Translations under genes and position numbers: made by a program
NCBI GenBank assembly: GCA_004211235.1
Contig: SEEY01000198.1
Span: forward strand, 1-7,088
Direction of reading: 5' to 3'
Length of the DNA: 7,088 nucleotides
Source: Rubrivivax sp.
GTDB lineage: Bacteria > Pseudomonadota > Gammaproteobacteria > Burkholderiales > Burkholderiaceae
In this document: one piece after another, positions 618 through 7,088 of the stretch
Numbering within the stretch: the first letter of the stretch is position 1
Layout: every line of letters starts with the position of its first letter
The notes under the pieces: model-generated
Told to the model about the DNA's origin: nothing
Seen by the model: the letters and a program-made list of their open reading frames with translations, nothing else
Database searches by the model: none

Positions 618-646
618 GCGTTCCAAGAACGCGCGCCACGGCCGTG
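618..646. repeat. Dyads abutting the first start codon of the operon
   Basis: GCGTTC-CAA-GAACGC (618-632) has 6-bp perfect arms and a 3-base loop. Five bases later comes the perfect 10-bp palindrome CACGGCCGTG (637-646), whose last three bases are the GTG at 644-646, the most upstream candidate start of the ThDP gene. If translation starts there, the ribosome would load on sequence that can be buried in these structures. No Shine-Dalgarno sequence lies between them. Confidence 0.4.
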
Positions 647-2497
647 ATGCCGTCCCATTGCCTGCTCACGACTGTGGAAACCAATACCGTATTCGCTTCG
701 CACCCTGAACGGGTGCCCGAACCTCCCCGGGACGCCGCCGACCTGCTGGTCGACGCGCTCGCTGCACTGGGCGTCGAGTTCGTCTTCGGCGTGCCTGGCG
801 GCGCCATCGAGCCGCTCTACAACGCCCTCGCGCGCAGCGCCCGGCGCGGCGGCCCGCAGGCCGTCGTCGCCCGCAACGAGCAGGGCGCCGCCTACATGGC
901 CGACGGCTATGCCCGCGAGACGGGCCGGCTCGGCGTGTGCATCGCCACGTCGGGTCCTGGCGCCACCAACCTGATCACCGGCGTGGCCTGTGCCTACGAC
1001 AACAACGTGCCGATGCTCGTCATCACCGGCCAGCCGCCGATCAAGAACTTCGGCAAGGGCGCGCTGCAGGAGTCGAGCTGCACCGGCGTCAACACGATGG
1101 CGATGTTCCGGCCTTGCACGCGCTACAACTCGCTGGTCTCGCATGCCGAGCAACTGCCCACCAAGCTGTTCAACGCGCTGATGCAGGCACAGCGTGCGCC
1201 CAGCGGCCCGAGCCACCTGTCCATCCCGGTCGACATCCTGCGCGAGCCCCTGCCCGAAGGCATGGAGACGCCGGACTTCGCCGGCCTGCTGCGCCGCGCG
1301 CCGGCCATGGTCGACCTGCCCGCCGTGCGCCAGCTCGCGCGCCTGCTGTTCTCCGCCCGCCAGCCGGTCTGGCTGATCGGTGATGGTTGCGGCGACGCGG
1401 CGGCCGACCTGATGCAGCTGGTGCAGCGCACCGATGGCCGCTTCATCACGACGCCCGACGGCAAGGGCTTCATCAACCCGCGCCACCCGCGTTTTCGCGG
1501 CGTGTTTGGTTTCGGCGGCCACGCCAGCGCGGCCGAGCTGCTGTCGAGCGAGCCCGACCTTGTCATCGCGCTGGGCACGGGCTTTGGCGAGTTCAACAGC
1601 GGTGGCTGGTCGGCCGCGCTGCTGAACAGCCGCCTCGTCCATGTGGACGACAGCGACGAGAACCTGATGCGCTCGCCGATGGCGCGGCTGCACGTGCGCG
1701 GCCACGTCAAGGCGGTGTGCGAACAGCTGCTGTCGCTGCTGGCCTCGCCCGGCGGGCAGGACGCGCAGCTGCTGCCCTTCACGCATCCGCAGATGGCACG
1801 CCAGGCCTATGAAGCGATGGTCGACGACCCGCAGGCGCTGCACAGCGCCGCCGCGCCCGTCAAGCCGCAGCGCCTGATGGCGACGCTGAGCGGCCGCTGC
1901 CCGCCGCAGACGCGCTTTGTCGCCGATGCGGGCAACAGCGCGGCCTGGGCGGTGCACTACCTCGCGCCGCACGACCAGCGCAGCCGCATGCCCGGCGGCG
2001 CCTACCTGCCGGCCGGCAAGGAGCGGCGCACCCGCAGCTCCAGCTGGCTGCGTGTGACGATGGACTTTGCGCCCATGGGCTGGGCCATCGGCTCGGCCGT
2101 GGGCATCGCGCTGGCCAACCGCCGCTGCCCGGTCGTCTGCCTGACGGGCGACGGCAGCTACCTGATGAACGGCCAGGAGATCACGGTCGCCGCCGAGCTG
2201 GGCCTGCCGGTGCTCTACGTCGTGCTCAACGACGGCGCGCTCGGCATGGTCAAGCATGGCCAGCGGCTGGCGGGCGCGGAGCCCATCGGCTTCCAGCTGC
2301 CCAAGGTCGACTTCGCCATGATGGCGGCGGCCATGGGCATCCCCGGCCACGTGATCAGCTCGCCCGCCGATCTCGATGCGCTCGACTTCAACGCGCTGCT
2401 GTCCCGCGACGGCCCGACGCTGCTGGACATCCGCATCGACGGCGAGGAAGTGCCGCCGATGAATCTCCGAATGAAAACCCTGGGAACCGCGAAATGA
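644..2497 (+). CDS. ThDP-dependent enzyme, acetohydroxyacid synthase superfamily
   Basis: This 617-residue protein has the three-domain architecture of ThDP 2-oxo-acid enzymes. The PYR domain spans about residues 30-200, with catalytic Glu79 in NEQGAAYMADGYAR and an SGPGATN loop at 103-109. A middle domain lies at about 225-370. The PP domain has GDG at 502-504 and ND at 529-530, the metal/ThDP-binding motif. The C-terminal half resembles acetohydroxyacid synthase (AHAS), but key AHAS residues differ. The FQ pair is LQ (141-142), the Lys of the IPKDV-like motif is Val196, and the QWQ Trp that selects 2-oxobutyrate is Gly539. It is therefore probably not the housekeeping enzyme; I expect a decarboxylation plus carboligation or acyl-transfer reaction on another substrate. 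FAD binding is uncertain. The start is uncertain: GTG644, ATG647, GTG674 and GTG713 are in frame, none has a Shine-Dalgarno sequence, and family similarity begins only near residue 30. GTG644 is the first start after the in-frame stop at 614-616. It overlaps the SDR gene by 4 bases. Confidence 0.85.
   Translation: MMPSHCLLTTVETNTVFASHPERVPEPPRDAADLLVDALAALGVEFVFGVPGGAIEPLYNALARSARRGGPQAVVARNEQGAAYMADGYARETGRLGVCIATSGPGATNLITGVACAYDNNVPMLVITGQPPIKNFGKGALQESSCTGVNTMAMFRPCTRYNSLVSHAEQLPTKLFNALMQAQRAPSGPSHLSIPVDILREPLPEGMETPDFAGLLRRAPAMVDLPAVRQLARLLFSARQPVWLIGDGCGDAAADLMQLVQRTDGRFITTPDGKGFINPRHPRFRGVFGFGGHASAAELLSSEPDLVIALGTGFGEFNSGGWSAALLNSRLVHVDDSDENLMRSPMARLHVRGHVKAVCEQLLSLLASPGGQDAQLLPFTHPQMARQAYEAMVDDPQALHSAAAPVKPQRLMATLSGRCPPQTRFVADAGNSAAWAVHYLAPHDQRSRMPGGAYLPAGKERRTRSSSWLRVTMDFAPMGWAIGSAVGIALANRRCPVVCLTGDGSYLMNGQEITVAAELGLPVLYVVLNDGALGMVKHGQRLAGAEPIGFQLPKVDFAMMAAAMGIPGHVISSPADLDALDFNALLSRDGPTLLDIRIDGEEVPPMNLRMKTLGTAK
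683..716. repeat. Two further dyads at the unconserved 5' end of the ThDP reading frame
   Basis: AATAC-C-GTATT (683-693) and GCACCC-TGAAC-GGGTGC (700-716) are both perfect. They fall before recognisable family similarity starts (about 728), so they may be leader rather than coding sequence. The second dyad covers GTG713, a candidate start, and a stop codon at 706-708 of a different frame. If GTG713 is the real start, the whole 434-716 stretch is untranslated or regulatory leader. Confidence 0.4.
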
Positions 2498-3261
2498 CGA
2501 CGACGACACAGACGCTTGGAAGCAAGAACGCCCTCATCACCGGCGGCAACAGCGGCATCGGCCTGGCCACGGCCAGGCTCTTCCTGGAGCACGGCGCCAA
2601 CGTGATGATCACCGGCCGCGACGAGGCCACGCTGGCCGCGGCCCGCGCCTCGCTCGGGCACGACCTGCTGGCCGAGCGCAGCGATGCCGGCAAGCTGGAC
2701 GACATCGACCGCCTGATGGCGCAGGTGAAGGCGCGCTTCGGCCATCTCGACGTGCTGGTGTTGAACGCCACGGGCGGCTCGCCGGTGCCGATCGAGTTCA
2801 TGACCGAGGACCAGTTCGACGCGATGAACAACGTCGCCTTCAAGGGCGTGTTCTTCGCCATCCAGCGCGCGCTGCCGCTGCTGCGCCCGGGCGCGTCCAT
2901 CGTCGTGACGACGTCCATCGCCAACCAGGTCGGGGCGCCAGGCTTCTCGGCCTATGCGGCCTGCAAGGCAGCGGCGCGCTCGCTGGTGCGCACCGCCAGC
3001 CTGGAGCTGGCCGCGCGCGGCATCCGTGTCAACGCGGTCTGTCCCGGCCCCATCGACACGCCCGGCTTCGGCCGTTGGGACCACGTGCCGCGCGAGGTGG
3101 TGGAGGGCGCCCGCGCCGACCTGACGCGCCGCTCGCCCGTGCAGCGTTTCGGCACCGCCGAGGAAGTGGCGAACGCGGTGCTCTATCTCGCCTCGCCGGC
3201 GTCGTCGTATGTCGTCGGCACCGAGCTGGTGGTCGATGGCGGCTTCAGCCAGCTGATGTGA
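2494..3261 (+). CDS. Short-chain dehydrogenase/reductase (classical SDR)
   Basis: This 255-residue protein is a complete classical SDR, a cytosolic NAD(P)-dependent oxidoreductase with a single Rossmann domain. Visible motifs are the cofactor loop TGGNSGIG (16-23), NATG (91-94) in place of the usual NNAG, catalytic Ser141, Tyr154 and Lys158 (YAACK), and the PGPIDTPG segment after beta-6. It ends with the usual VVDGGFSQLM tail. Arg42 after the second strand (TGRD) suggests NADP(H). The helix-4 position normally held by the catalytic Asn (VNxKG) appears to be Ala115 in NNVAFKGVFF. The ATG overlaps the ThDP gene's TGA as ATGA, so translation is probably coupled; upstream there is only a weak GGGAA. 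In context it likely reduces or oxidises the product of the ThDP enzyme, such as a hydroxyketone or keto acid. The substrate cannot be read from sequence. Confidence 0.9.
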   Translation: MTTTTQTLGSKNALITGGNSGIGLATARLFLEHGANVMITGRDEATLAAARASLGHDLLAERSDAGKLDDIDRLMAQVKARFGHLDVLVLNATGGSPVPIEFMTEDQFDAMNNVAFKGVFFAIQRALPLLRPGASIVVTTSIANQVGAPGFSAYAACKAAARSLVRTASLELAARGIRVNAVCPGPIDTPGFGRWDHVPREVVEGARADLTRRSPVQRFGTAEEVANAVLYLASPASSYVVGTELVVDGGFSQLM

Positions 3262-3268
3262 GCGGGCG

Positions 3269-4066
3269 ATGACCGAACAGGTTCGTACGCGCATCTGGCG
3301 TGAGGAGGCCGAGCCCGCCGACCGCTTCGCGACGCGTTCCGCGCATTGCCGTGGCTACGACGTGTATGCCGACCTGCTGGGCCGCGCCCGCTGGGTCGAC
3401 ATGCTGTGGCTGCTGTTCCGCGAGGAGGCCCCCACCGACGCGCAGGCACGTTTGCTGGAAGCGCTCGCCGTGGCCCTGGCCAACGCCGGCCCGCGCGATG
3501 CCGCGGTGCATGCGGCGATGTGCTCGGGGCTGGGCGGCTCGCCGGCGGCGGCGGCGCTGATGGCCGCGCTGGCCGTGGGTGCGGGCCGCCATGGCGGTGC
3601 GCAGGAAGTGGCCGCGGCCATGACGCTGTGGGACCGCCAGGCTGCGCCGGAGAGCGTCGAACCCTGGGCCGGCCGCTGGTTGTCCGCCGCGGCACCGACC
3701 TCGGCCATCTGGCCCGAGGCCGACCATCCGCCCGGCTTCGAGCCCAACGGCGTGGTCACGCCCGGCATCGTCGCCGACGCCTTGCAACGCCTGGCCGACA
3801 TCGGCGGCGGCCCACGGCTGCGCTGGCTGGCCGCGCAACGCGCTGCCGTCGAGGCGGCGGTCGGCTTGCCGCTGGCGATGTCCGGCGTCGCCGCGGCGGC
3901 GCTGGGCGACCTGGGCTTCACGCCCGACCAGGGCGAGATGCTGCACCTGCTGCTGCGCCTGCCCGGTGCGGCGGCACATGCGCTGGAACAGCGCGCCGGC
4001 AGCTACAAGAACTTTCCGTTCTTCGCGCTCGACCTGCAGGACGATCCAATGAAGGTGGCGGCATGA
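3269..4066 (+). CDS. Citrate synthase/citryl-CoA lyase-like protein A, catalytically degenerate
   Basis: This 265-residue all-helical protein matches the short citrate synthase superfamily members often annotated citryl-CoA lyase. Recognisable blocks are SPAAAALMAALAVGAGRHGGAQEV (91-114), equivalent to the HGGAN motif with His108 conserved; PPGFEPNG (154-161), equivalent to PGFGHRVH; and LPLAMSGVAAAALGDLGF (200-217), equivalent to the LPxNVDGAxAAxLxDLGF block. In family enzymes the second block holds a His and the third an Asp that enolises acetyl-CoA. Here these appear to be Pro159 and Ser205, so only the first of the three catalytic residues remains. It lies 7 bases after the SDR stop, with a weak GAGCGGGCG upstream, and overlaps the next citrate synthase-like gene by ATGA, pointing to equimolar production and a heteromeric complex. 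Family assignment is good; activity as a citrate synthase or lyase is doubtful. Confidence 0.75.
   Translation: MTEQVRTRIWREEAEPADRFATRSAHCRGYDVYADLLGRARWVDMLWLLFREEAPTDAQARLLEALAVALANAGPRDAAVHAAMCSGLGGSPAAAALMAALAVGAGRHGGAQEVAAAMTLWDRQAAPESVEPWAGRWLSAAAPTSAIWPEADHPPGFEPNGVVTPGIVADALQRLADIGGGPRLRWLAAQRAAVEAAVGLPLAMSGVAAAALGDLGFTPDQGEMLHLLLRLPGAAAHALEQRAGSYKNFPFFALDLQDDPMKVAA
4051..4055 (+). promoter_or_regulatory. Ribosome binding site of the second citrate synthase-like gene
   Basis: GAAGG lies 7 bases before the ATG at 4063, inside the end of the preceding gene. It is the clearest Shine-Dalgarno sequence in the operon. It decides the start: the same frame is open far upstream (from 3346), but that extension overlaps the preceding gene completely and shows no family similarity. 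Confidence 0.6.
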
Positions 4067-4875
4067 ACGAACAGAAAACCTCGCCGCTCGAACAGCACGC
4101 CGGCCGGCTGCGCACCCGCATGGGCGGGGCCTTCGTCGGCCAGCGCGCCGTGTTCCGCGGCCAGGACCTGCACGCCGACCTGGCCGGCATGGACTGGATG
4201 GCGCTGTACGTCTTCGGCATCACCGGCGAGCGCTACACACCGGCGCAGATCCGCGTGCTGCATGCGATCTGGGTCTGCACCAGCTATCCGGATGCGCGCA
4301 TCTGGAACAACCGTGTGGCCGCGCTGGCGGGCAGCGCACGCAGCTCGGGCACGCTCGGCGTGGCCGCGGCGCTGGCGGTGTCGGAGGCCGAGATCTATGG
4401 CCGCGGCATCGACATCCGCGCCGCCAGCTTCATCCAGCGGGCACGCCAGGTGATCGCGGCTGGCGCCAGCCTGGACGACTGTGTGCGCGACGAGTTGAAG
4501 CGCCACCGCGCCATCGCCGGCTACGGCCGCCCCATCGCTGCGGGAGACGAGCGCATCGCGCCGATGCTGCGGCTGGTCGAGCGGGAAGGGCTTGCCGGTG
4601 GGGCGCATGTGCAGGCGGCGCAGAAGGTGGAGCAGCATCTGCAGGAAGGCCGCTGGCGGCTGCGCATGAATTACGCCGCGCTGACGGCGGCGCTGACGGC
4701 CGACATGGGTTTCACGCCGCGCCAGCACTACCAGTTCGGCTTCCCCGCCTTCCTGGCCGGCATGCAGCCCTGCTACATCGAGGCCAGCGAACAACCGGCC
4801 GGCACCTTGCTGCCGCTGGCCTGCGACCACATCGCCTACGAAGGGCAGGCGCCCCGGCGCTGGAACGCTGCCTAG
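4063..4875 (+). CDS. Citrate synthase/citryl-CoA lyase-like protein B, all catalytic residues replaced
   Basis: This 270-residue protein is similar in length and block order to its upstream neighbour. The helix preceding the active site is family-like (NNRVAALAGSARSSGTLG, 82-99). The three catalytic motifs are present as blocks but altered: EIYGRGID (110-117) where HGGA is expected, GYGRPI (153-158) with Arg156 where GFGH has His, and LRMNYAALTAALTADMGF (200-217) with Ala205 where the Asp should be. Asn203 is kept. None of the three citrate synthase catalytic residues survives by this alignment, so B is either a structural/regulatory partner of protein A or performs different chemistry. The start ATG overlaps the stop of A (ATGA) and has a good Shine-Dalgarno sequence. 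It is the last gene of the operon; its TAG overlaps the TAG of the convergent receptor gene, and no terminator is seen. Confidence 0.72.
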   Translation: MNEQKTSPLEQHAGRLRTRMGGAFVGQRAVFRGQDLHADLAGMDWMALYVFGITGERYTPAQIRVLHAIWVCTSYPDARIWNNRVAALAGSARSSGTLGVAAALAVSEAEIYGRGIDIRAASFIQRARQVIAAGASLDDCVRDELKRHRAIAGYGRPIAAGDERIAPMLRLVEREGLAGGAHVQAAQKVEQHLQEGRWRLRMNYAALTAALTADMGFTPRQHYQFGFPAFLAGMQPCYIEASEQPAGTLLPLACDHIAYEGQAPRRWNAA

Positions 4876-6983
4876 AAGCGATACACCAGCTGCACGTCCA
4901 GCGCGCGTCCGGCCATCGGCAGGTCGTCGGGGATGCCGGTGCTCGCCAGGCTGGGCTCGCGCACGTTGGCGTCGAACAGGTTGCGCAGCGAGATGCTCAG
5001 GTCCCAGCCGGACTGGCGCGCTGCGGTGCGCAGGGTCAGGTCGGCGGTGGTGTAGTCGGGCACGGCAGGCCGCAGGTCGCCCACCGGCCGCAGCCGGCCG
5101 GCCACGTGCTTGACCTGGCCGCTGAGCGCCCAGTCCTTGTCGAAGTGCCAGTCGGCGCGCAGATAGGCCATCTGGTGCGGCGCATAGCCGGCGTCATGGC
5201 CGGTGCTCTCGTCCAGCGCCCGCTGGTAGGCGTAGTGGCCGGCCAGGCGCAGGTTGCGCGCCACGTCCGCCACCAGTTCCAGCTCCAACCCGTGGCCGCG
5301 CTGGCTGCCCACGTTGGCGTATTCCGACGTGCCGCCGCCGATGCTCGCGGCGCGGATGATGTCCGTCATCGTGTAGCGGAAGGCGCTGGCCTGCAGCTGC
5401 ACCTGCGCGCCGAGCTGCCAGCTGAACGCGGCTTCGGCGGTGCTGATCTGCTCCGGCTTGAGCGTCGGGTTGCCGCGGATCACCGGGTTGTTGATGCTGT
5501 ATTCCTCGGAGAACGAGGGCGCCCTGAAGGCCCGGCCGAGCAGCAGCTTGGCGGTGACGTCGAGGCTCGCGTCCCAGACCAGGGCCAGGCGCGGGTTGGT
5601 GGTGTTGCCGAAGTCGCTGTAGTTGTCGCGCCGCACGCCGGCGGTGAGCGTCCAGTCCCGGGCCACGCTCCATTCGTCCTGCAGATAGGCGTAGGTCACG
5701 CGACGACGTTGCGGCGTCACGAACGACTTGTCGACCGCGAACTCGATCAGCTCGCCGCCGGGCGTCGGCATCGGCAGGCCTTTCGCCGGCCCGGAATCGA
5801 TGATGGTGAAGTTCTTGAACTCCTGGGTGCGGTACATGTCCAGGTCGTCATGGCCAATGCCGAGCCGCAGCTGATGGCCGCTCAGGCCGGTGTAGCCCAG
5901 CACGGCGGCCACGCGCGTCTGCCGCTCCCAGGTGCTGGGCGCGCCAAGCATGCCCTGGGGAAAGGCGCCGCCGAAGGCCCCGGGCGGGAAGATCTGCAGC
6001 GTCTGCGGGAACTGGTTGGTCAGCTGGAAGTAGCTGCCGGTCAGGTTCAGCAGCAGCTTCGGCGCCAGCTCCAGTTCGGAGAGCGACATGTTGGCGATCC
6101 AGCGCTGGTTCCGGCCCTTGCCGACCGGGTCGAGCGCGCCGCCGGCACCGGCACCGGTGCCGATGTTGTCCCTGAGCATGTAGCCGGCGCGCAGCCTCAG
6201 CTTGCTGTACTGGCCCTCGACATGGGCATCCACCGAGTCGTAGCCGGTGTTGACCGGCCCGGGCGCGAGGCTCGCCCGGGTGCCGAACAGGGCGTCCAGC
6301 CCGGTCTGCGCGTCGGCCCGAACCGTTTCCTTGAAGCCATCGGTGCGCCCGGCATGCAGATAGGCCGCCACCGCCATCGGGCCTACGCTGCCGCCGTACT
6401 GCGCCCAGCCGTCCCGCGTCGCAAACGAGCCGGCGCGCAGGCCGACTTCCAGCCCCTGCACATCGGCCGGGCCCTTGGTGACGATGTTGATGACGCCGGC
6501 ATAGGCGTCGGCGCCATACAGCGCCGAGCCCGGGCCGCGGATGACCTCGACGCGCGCGATGTTGGCCACCGGCAGGCCGGCCCAGAGCGTGCTGCGGTTG
6601 CCGATGAACATCGTCGTCATCGGCACGCCGTTGTAGAGCACCAGCGTCTGCGCGTTGAACTCGCTGTAGATGCCGCGAATGACATACAGCGGGTTGTAGC
6701 CCTGGTTGTTGCGGCCCACGTGCACGCCGGGCACGCTGGCGAGCACCTGGTCGATATCGGTAGCGCCCATCATGGCGATGTCCTGCGCCGTGATCACCGT
6801 GGCCACGGCCGGCGCGCGGCGCAGCGACTGCGCAGCGCCGGTGGCGATGCTGACGGTCGTCTTGTCGCCGTAGACCTGGGCGAGCTCTTCTTCCTCATTG
6901 CCGGGCGTCTGGGCGAGCGATGCCGACGGGGCGGCAGCCGAGCAGACGGCTCCCAGGAACACCAGGCGTAAGAAAACTCTCAT
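4872..6983 (-). CDS. TonB-dependent outer-membrane receptor
   Basis: This 703-residue protein has a signal peptide (MRVFLRLVFLG core, probable cleavage after Ala24 in SLA-Q) and a short acidic mature N-terminus. A possible TonB box lies in DKTTVSIATG (40-49). The plug domain is at about 55-170, with YVIRGI (100-105) and the plug signature RVEVIRGPGSALYGADA (144-160). A 22-strand-type barrel follows, ending in the aromatic LVYRF signal for outer-membrane insertion. No N-terminal signalling (STN) domain is present, so it is not a FecA-type transducer. The type resembles colicin-I-receptor/siderophore-like receptors; the ligand is unknown. I chose ATG 6983 rather than the upstream ATG 7079 because it starts the signal peptide and has GGAGAA 7 bases upstream; the longer form would bury the signal peptide behind 32 residues. 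It converges on the ThDP operon with overlapping stop codons. Confidence 0.9.
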   Translation of the reverse strand: MRVFLRLVFLGAVCSAAAPSASLAQTPGNEEEELAQVYGDKTTVSIATGAAQSLRRAPAVATVITAQDIAMMGATDIDQVLASVPGVHVGRNNQGYNPLYVIRGIYSEFNAQTLVLYNGVPMTTMFIGNRSTLWAGLPVANIARVEVIRGPGSALYGADAYAGVINIVTKGPADVQGLEVGLRAGSFATRDGWAQYGGSVGPMAVAAYLHAGRTDGFKETVRADAQTGLDALFGTRASLAPGPVNTGYDSVDAHVEGQYSKLRLRAGYMLRDNIGTGAGAGGALDPVGKGRNQRWIANMSLSELELAPKLLLNLTGSYFQLTNQFPQTLQIFPPGAFGGAFPQGMLGAPSTWERQTRVAAVLGYTGLSGHQLRLGIGHDDLDMYRTQEFKNFTIIDSGPAKGLPMPTPGGELIEFAVDKSFVTPQRRRVTYAYLQDEWSVARDWTLTAGVRRDNYSDFGNTTNPRLALVWDASLDVTAKLLLGRAFRAPSFSEEYSINNPVIRGNPTLKPEQISTAEAAFSWQLGAQVQLQASAFRYTMTDIIRAASIGGGTSEYANVGSQRGHGLELELVADVARNLRLAGHYAYQRALDESTGHDAGYAPHQMAYLRADWHFDKDWALSGQVKHVAGRLRPVGDLRPAVPDYTTADLTLRTAARQSGWDLSISLRNLFDANVREPSLASTGIPDDLPMAGRALDVQLVYRF

Positions 6984-7062: not shown

Positions 7063-7088
7063 AGGGCGACGCTGCCCATTCGTGAACT

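Follow-up and report, generated by a model that had tools for sequence, protein, structure and literature searches.

Two adjacent genes in a stretch of Rubrivivax sp. DNA encode proteins with the fold of citrate synthase, and the question they raise is what such a fold does once its catalytic residues are gone. The stretch, called the window below (7088 nucleotides, contig SEEY01000198.1), carries the genes of protein A (3269–4066) and protein B (4063–4875) in tandem on the plus strand, with an ATGA overlap (4063–4066, plus strand) that holds the start codon of B and the stop codon of A. Citrate synthase is the textbook case of Claisen catalysis. Neither A nor B has its His-His-Asp triad, B has a strongly conserved set of other residues there, and both genes belong to a module that also includes a thiamine diphosphate (ThDP)-dependent enzyme, a TonB-dependent receptor, a periplasmic binding protein and a membrane sensor. 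An initial annotation made from the window alone had proposed the overlapping citrate synthase-fold pair, which was confirmed by profile and structure comparison; the module lies beyond what it had considered. A co-inherited pair that keeps a fold, drops its triad and fixes other residues offers a clean test of how a fold acquires new chemistry. Loci and genomes are designated by L and G numbers.

Fold and kinship of A and B

The citrate synthase/citryl-CoA lyase (CCL) fold of A and B is secure. With the Pfam citrate synthase model (PF00285), A scored 24.0 bits and B 23.8 bits, both below the cut-off of 27; the distant homologues A' and B' of L075 cleared it with 33.6 and 28.1 bits. The PRK06224 citryl-CoA lyase models of NCBIfam were the top matches, yet the scores (61.6 bits for A, 47.4 for B) fell short of the cut-off of 245 for the best model. 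The nearest solved sequence for both proteins was the CCL of Hydrogenobacter thermophilus (6hxp). Profile comparison with ten triad-keeping CCLs gave probabilities of 99.2 (A) and 98.3 (B) per cent. AlphaFold monomers were predicted with a mean local confidence (pLDDT) of 75 and a template-modelling score (pTM) of 0.73 for A, and of 63.5 and 0.62 for B. Their top structural matches were CCLs, ahead of citrate synthases; the predicted pocket geometry is insecure, and least secure in B, where residues 75–115 have a pLDDT below 50.

A and B match 6hxp and the lyase module of ATP citrate lyase in length, helix order and fold. The ten aligned CCLs are each encoded by one gene and keep His-His-Asp, whereas A and B are two subunits with new invariant residues. 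Compared with citrate synthase and methylcitrate synthase (PF00285), A and B are also shorter. Whether or not citrate synthases were included, the trees placed A-type rows on one side of a branch and B-type rows on another, and A and B were jointly separated from the CCLs (support 99/96 and 97/95). Both trees omitted some A/B rows, one also the citrate synthases, and the tree program flagged long branches. A and B descend from a citrate-cleaving enzyme, and the split between them is consistent with one duplication. A separate full-length citrate synthase was present in all ten genomes tested. Many A/B-type proteins are labelled 'citrate synthase' or 'citryl-CoA lyase' in the source databases, and these names are probably wrong.

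No natural A-B fusion was seen, though no search was aimed at fusions, and A found no match among plasmids. Separate from these proteins is a single-gene CCL-like clade (L060, L061, L063, L064 and L067) with a Leu-type first-His position, mostly Asn for Asp (NVNG) and the second His kept; judged from the alignment, it appears to be another altered triad.

Loss of the triad and its replacement

Conservation was counted in the best 120 of 2763 matches to A and the best 120 of 1929 matches to B. The A set had 118 rows (the window and 117 of the best 120; one sequence identical to the window and two that were too short were excluded), and the B set 121 rows (the window and all of the best 120). 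Triad positions were read from an alignment with CCLs and citrate synthases that included 58 A rows and 56 B rows; A rows L213 and L217 were badly aligned in it.

At the His, His and Asp positions A has His108 (3590–3592, plus strand), Pro159 and Ser205 (3881–3883, plus strand), and B has Tyr112 (4396–4398, plus strand), Arg156 and Ala205, the residues that the initial annotation had assigned by motif. The intact triad was found in none of the 58 A rows and none of the 56 B rows, and Asp likewise in none, two A rows and one B row being gapped at that column. The gapped B row, L101, was mis-cut; it alone among the B rows had His at the first of the three triad columns. Among the A rows, His stood at the first position in six and at the second in one (L072). 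Triad absence is thus a family trait of A and B. Since neither an intact triad nor the Asp occurs in any aligned homologue, ordinary Claisen chemistry by A/B is unlikely, as had been argued from the window alone.

The former active site of B has been replaced and re-equipped, not decayed. Arg156 and Pro157 at the second-His position, Asp162, Glu163 and Arg164 (together 4528–4554, plus strand), Arg197, Arg199 and Asn203 were each found in 121 of 121 rows, and Tyr112 in 118. Asn203 lies close to Ala205 at the Asp position (4669–4677, plus strand), which was Ala in 67 rows and Gly in 54. Trp81, Asn83, Arg84, Glu108, Tyr112, Arg149, Arg156, Glu163, Arg164 and Asn203 were also invariant over 13 deep-clade rows; Glu108 can become Asp in more distant rows. 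The description of both sites as dismantled does not fit B, which carries a new conserved set there.

A presents a different picture. Its first-His position drifts (His in 41, Tyr in 32 and Leu in 19 of the 118 rows), and His108, although it does stand at that position as had been noted, is incidental. At the second, GFEP (residues 156–159; 3734–3745, plus strand) replaces GFGH and the second-His loop is missing. The Asp position was Ser in 68, Thr in 40 and Ala in 6 of 118 rows. In 13 of 13 deep-clade rows A kept Asn72 and Gly-Pro-Arg-Asp 74–77 within NAGPRD (family NPGPRD; residues 72–77; 3482–3499, plus strand), Pro-Gly-Phe 155–157, and His237/Glu240/Gln241, a group that varies in L218 and L224.

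Three other interpretations of these residues were considered. His153 of A (conserved in 115 of 118 rows) was rejected as a second catalytic His because distant A-type proteins place it upstream of the aligned PPGF. Random decay was rejected by the residue conservation and by the ratio of nonsynonymous to synonymous substitution (dN/dS), which was 0.14–0.18 for A and B against the near relatives L001 and L002. An active site shared through complementary losses (an Arg of A at the position of Arg401 and an Arg of B at that of Arg329, in pig citrate synthase numbering) is not claimed, the arginine of A being missing in A' rows.

A six-gene module

The ThDP enzyme, A, B, TonB receptor, PF04392 binding protein and membrane sensor were found together in the loci retrieved with A. 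Among L001–L024, the ThDP enzyme and A were present in 24 loci, B, the binding protein and the sensor in 23 each, and the TonB receptor in 22; L011 is a 3.5 kb contig, L004 stops before the TonB position, and L025, a truncated contig, was left out. The initial annotation had treated A and B as a pair, and they are indeed co-inherited, with A immediately preceding B in all fetched loci that contain the two. The sensors of L001 and L075 end in kinase domains, that of L018 is a hybrid kinase with GGDEF-EAL and those of L009 and L112 are of the PAS-GGDEF-EAL type. In L213, L215, L216 and L217 the recognised sensor is short and an extra gene recurs, which in L213 encodes a receiver-PAS-GGDEF-EAL protein. 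The distant A'/B' clade (L073–L076) holds the same six genes in a changed order. The module was found in Beta- and Gammaproteobacteria, including Gallionellaceae and Sulfuricella, which are lithoautotrophs. It links metabolic-type enzymes with outer-membrane uptake and with kinase or cyclic di-GMP (c-di-GMP) signalling. Two module-type TonB receptor genes stand in one locus in L010 (2634–4718 and 11633–13714) and in L007 (11666–13705 and 15606–17690).

On the plus strand of the window the ThDP gene, a short-chain dehydrogenase/reductase (SDR) gene, A and B are tightly packed, and a convergent TonB receptor gene lies behind them. The ThDP gene (644–2497, plus strand; Pfam TPP_enzyme N, M and C domains) is of the acetolactate synthase type and adjoins A/B wherever a fetched locus is long enough to include it; its start codon is uncertain, homology starting near residue 10–30. 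The closest solved chains to its product were BbmA (8x3x, 5.3e-89), CsmA (8x3z, 4e-78) and acetolactate synthase 6lpi (3.5e-66), and the three ThDP-enzyme domains are common to BbmA, CsmA, acetohydroxyacid synthase and the window protein. It differs from the biosynthetic acetolactate synthases in scoring 301 bits with TIGR00118, below the cut-off of 538.35. Nothing on the function of BbmA or CsmA was found in the open-access literature. The fold and the gene families are known; a description of the pair or the module was not found in the open-access literature, subscription papers lying mostly outside the search, and absence from print is itself unproven.

Occurrence across genomes

One order was sampled with 300 genomes and searched with B, the binding protein, the ThDP enzyme and a sulfotransferase; for G004 (the sample centre) and G010 the presence of the pair was known before the search. 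Occurrence was nested. The binding protein was found in 20 genomes, the ThDP enzyme in 16, all within these 20, and B in 14, all within the 16 (B against binding protein, Fisher test, P = 9.6e-20). A adjoined B in 14 of 14 B genomes (G004 as L006). The TonB receptor, binding protein and sensor, called the receiver genes below, were on the same stretch in 13 of the 14; L096 is a 6.6 kb contig, and the binding protein of that genome lies on another contig. Enzyme genes were accompanied by the dedicated binding protein in all 14 B genomes and all 16 ThDP genomes of this sample, the exception being L220 from another order.

In both genomes that have the ThDP enzyme and lack B (G362 and G569), a PF13469 sulfotransferase is present. 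At E 1e-80 this protein was found in 4 of the 300 genomes, every one with this ThDP enzyme. It stands with the ThDP enzyme and a TonB receptor, A/B being absent, in L132 (5873–7138) and L137 (2972–4219), and also adjoins A/B in L003, L092, L096, L213 and L215, with two copies in L003 and L092. The ThDP enzyme is probably the core, and A/B or the sulfotransferase its partner.

Of the four genomes with the binding protein and no ThDP enzyme, three have the receiver genes alone (L112, L133 and L134) and one offers only short contigs (L135 and L136). In L112 (6990–12876) the receiver genes adjoin mutS and an aconitase gene. Receptors without synthesis genes resemble the uptake of foreign siderophores, and the TonB receptor of the window matches siderophore-receptor models (TIGR01783, 141.7 bits, below the cut-off of 223.5). 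A cassette in which the enzymes make a metal-binding molecule, TonB retrieves it and the sensor signals its uptake is nevertheless very improbable: no siderophore synthetase or metal ABC transporter was noticed among the annotated genes, and the binding protein is of the PF04392 family.

In a second order (135 genomes) B was found in 19 genomes and the ThDP enzyme in 21, with 18 shared. In the 19th B genome (G604) the ThDP gene falls below the threshold (L218). Three genomes have the ThDP enzyme and lack B: two carry A at the end of a contig (L219 and L221), and the third is L220, which has a module-type ThDP gene (1717–3753) and a neighbour of 648 amino acids without a Pfam hit. Flanks were inspected for 15 of the 19 B genomes and for G008 (L018); G589, G598 and G625 were left out. 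The binding-protein query found 14 of the 135 genomes and was too divergent for counting absences.

Divergence with the TonB receptor

The four Roseateles loci compared all have ThDP enzymes 86–88% identical to that of the window (88% in L006, 86% in L015). A, B and the TonB receptor are 81–90% identical to those of L001 and L002. Against L006 and L015, identity falls to 61 and 62% for A, 56 and 54% for B, and 60 and 60% for the TonB receptor. The binding protein (74–79% to L015) and the sensor (79–83% to L015) differ little between the two Roseateles types. By these identities, A/B vary with the outer-membrane receptor and not with the adjacent ThDP enzyme. Joint divergence of A, B and TonB is what one would predict were A/B to determine the structure recognised by the receptor.

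This bears on whether A/B are a non-catalytic pseudoenzyme pair serving the ThDP enzyme as a scaffold for regulation or metabolite binding. The regulatory subunit of acetolactate synthase provides a model, both triads are absent, and of the 16 first-order genomes with the ThDP enzyme 14 also have A/B. Against this, A/B diverge with TonB and not with the ThDP enzyme. The residues at the former active site of B (invariant Arg, Arg and Asn, near-invariant Tyr) seem to exceed what a scaffold would need, and in the first order A/B are missing exactly where the sulfotransferase, an enzyme, occurs. We consider a scaffold improbable.

Proposed function

Our preferred reading, held tentatively and at somewhat less than even odds, is that A/B form a heteromer that partners the ThDP enzyme and, by chemistry other than Claisen, shapes a small molecule recognised by the TonB receptor. 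A and B, which are paralogues, would be subunits, probably of one heteromer, that have abandoned Claisen condensation and cleavage. The ThDP enzyme would use an acyl-anion intermediate to form (or break) a C-C bond. Having lost the enolising Asp, A/B should work without an enolate; they may bind and convert the ThDP product, for example by acyl transfer. Transfer to a hydroxyl, paralleling sulfonyl transfer by the sulfotransferase, is a guess only. The reaction would more likely take place in the Tyr112/Arg156/Arg164/Asn203 pocket of B, while A would more likely have a structural or gating role; the SDR and the sulfotransferase would be optional tailoring enzymes. A/B would set the final structure of the molecule, the co-varying TonB receptor would carry it into the periplasm, and the PF04392 protein would present it to the membrane sensor, leading to a phosphorelay and/or c-di-GMP. 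The neighbouring carbon-joining enzyme and the uptake and sensing apparatus hint at an undescribed pathway for a sensed small molecule, whether made or processed.

The nearest competitor, which we judge rather unlikely, is a catabolic uptake operon in which TonB imports a nutrient, the binding protein and sensor induce, and a ThDP lyase, the SDR and A/B degrade. Nutrient import is common for TonB receptors, an SDR adjoins the pair, aminotransferase and acyl-CoA dehydrogenase genes lie near some loci, and joint divergence of A, B and TonB would suit differing substrates. Such an operon would fit poorly with receiver genes without enzymes in L112, L133 and L134, with a sulfotransferase partner, which suggests building over breaking, and with the module in lithoautotrophs; no inner-membrane transporter was noticed among the recurrent neighbours of the examined loci. 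Receiver genes can stand alone and enzymes without receivers were seen only in L220, a one-way dependence that resembles a synthase and its receptor more than a feeding operon. Synthesis with sensing is placed first, catabolism second, a regulatory scaffold third and a metallophore fourth.

Several observations weigh against synthesis and sensing. The receiver-only genomes are possibly incomplete assemblies. In the 12 kb of L220 the ThDP type stands with neither A nor B nor any recognised receiver gene, so there is no strict rule that the enzymes need receiver genes. Genes of amine and acyl-CoA metabolism near several gammaproteobacterial loci (aminotransferase and acyl-CoA dehydrogenase in the L018 type, acyl-CoA dehydrogenases in L224) lean to catabolism. 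Breakdown of different imported substrates would account equally well for the joint divergence of A, B and TonB, and block replacement by gene transfer would give the same pattern. Against L006, dN/dS is higher, at 0.39 for A and 0.51 for B.

A broader extension of the preferred reading is speculative and, in our view, unlikely. The module would be an undescribed class of chemical communication, in which the ThDP carboligase and the neofunctionalised A/B heteromer (or the sulfotransferase) make a signal, TonB recaptures it, the PF04392 protein presents it and a kinase or c-di-GMP sensor reads it. A/B and the receptor would switch specificity jointly, and receiver-only genomes would be listeners. 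If so, A/B would be a citrate synthase-fold enzyme acting without enolate chemistry. The module shares with LuxPQ a periplasmic binding protein and a membrane sensor that can be a kinase, with CqsA/CqsS an enzyme gene adjoining the receptor gene, and with both types the occurrence of receivers without the synthase. It differs in its enzyme and binding-protein families and in the added TonB receptor, and its signal molecule is hypothetical. The nested occurrence makes the synthase and receiver hypothesis directly testable in cultured Roseateles.

Other features of the window

The SDR oxidoreductase gene (2494–3261, plus strand; adh_short_C2, 2.4e-60) is an optional member of the module, found between the ThDP gene and A only in L001, L002, L005, L007, L012 and L097. 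The TonB-dependent receptor (4872–6983, minus strand) has the Pfam Plug and TonB_dep_Rec_b-barrel domains. The window stops at 7088, short of the point where binding-protein and sensor genes follow TonB in L001, L002, L006 and L015. At the other end, positions 1–306 on the minus strand hold the start of a gene that runs past the window edge and presumably encodes a YCII-related protein.
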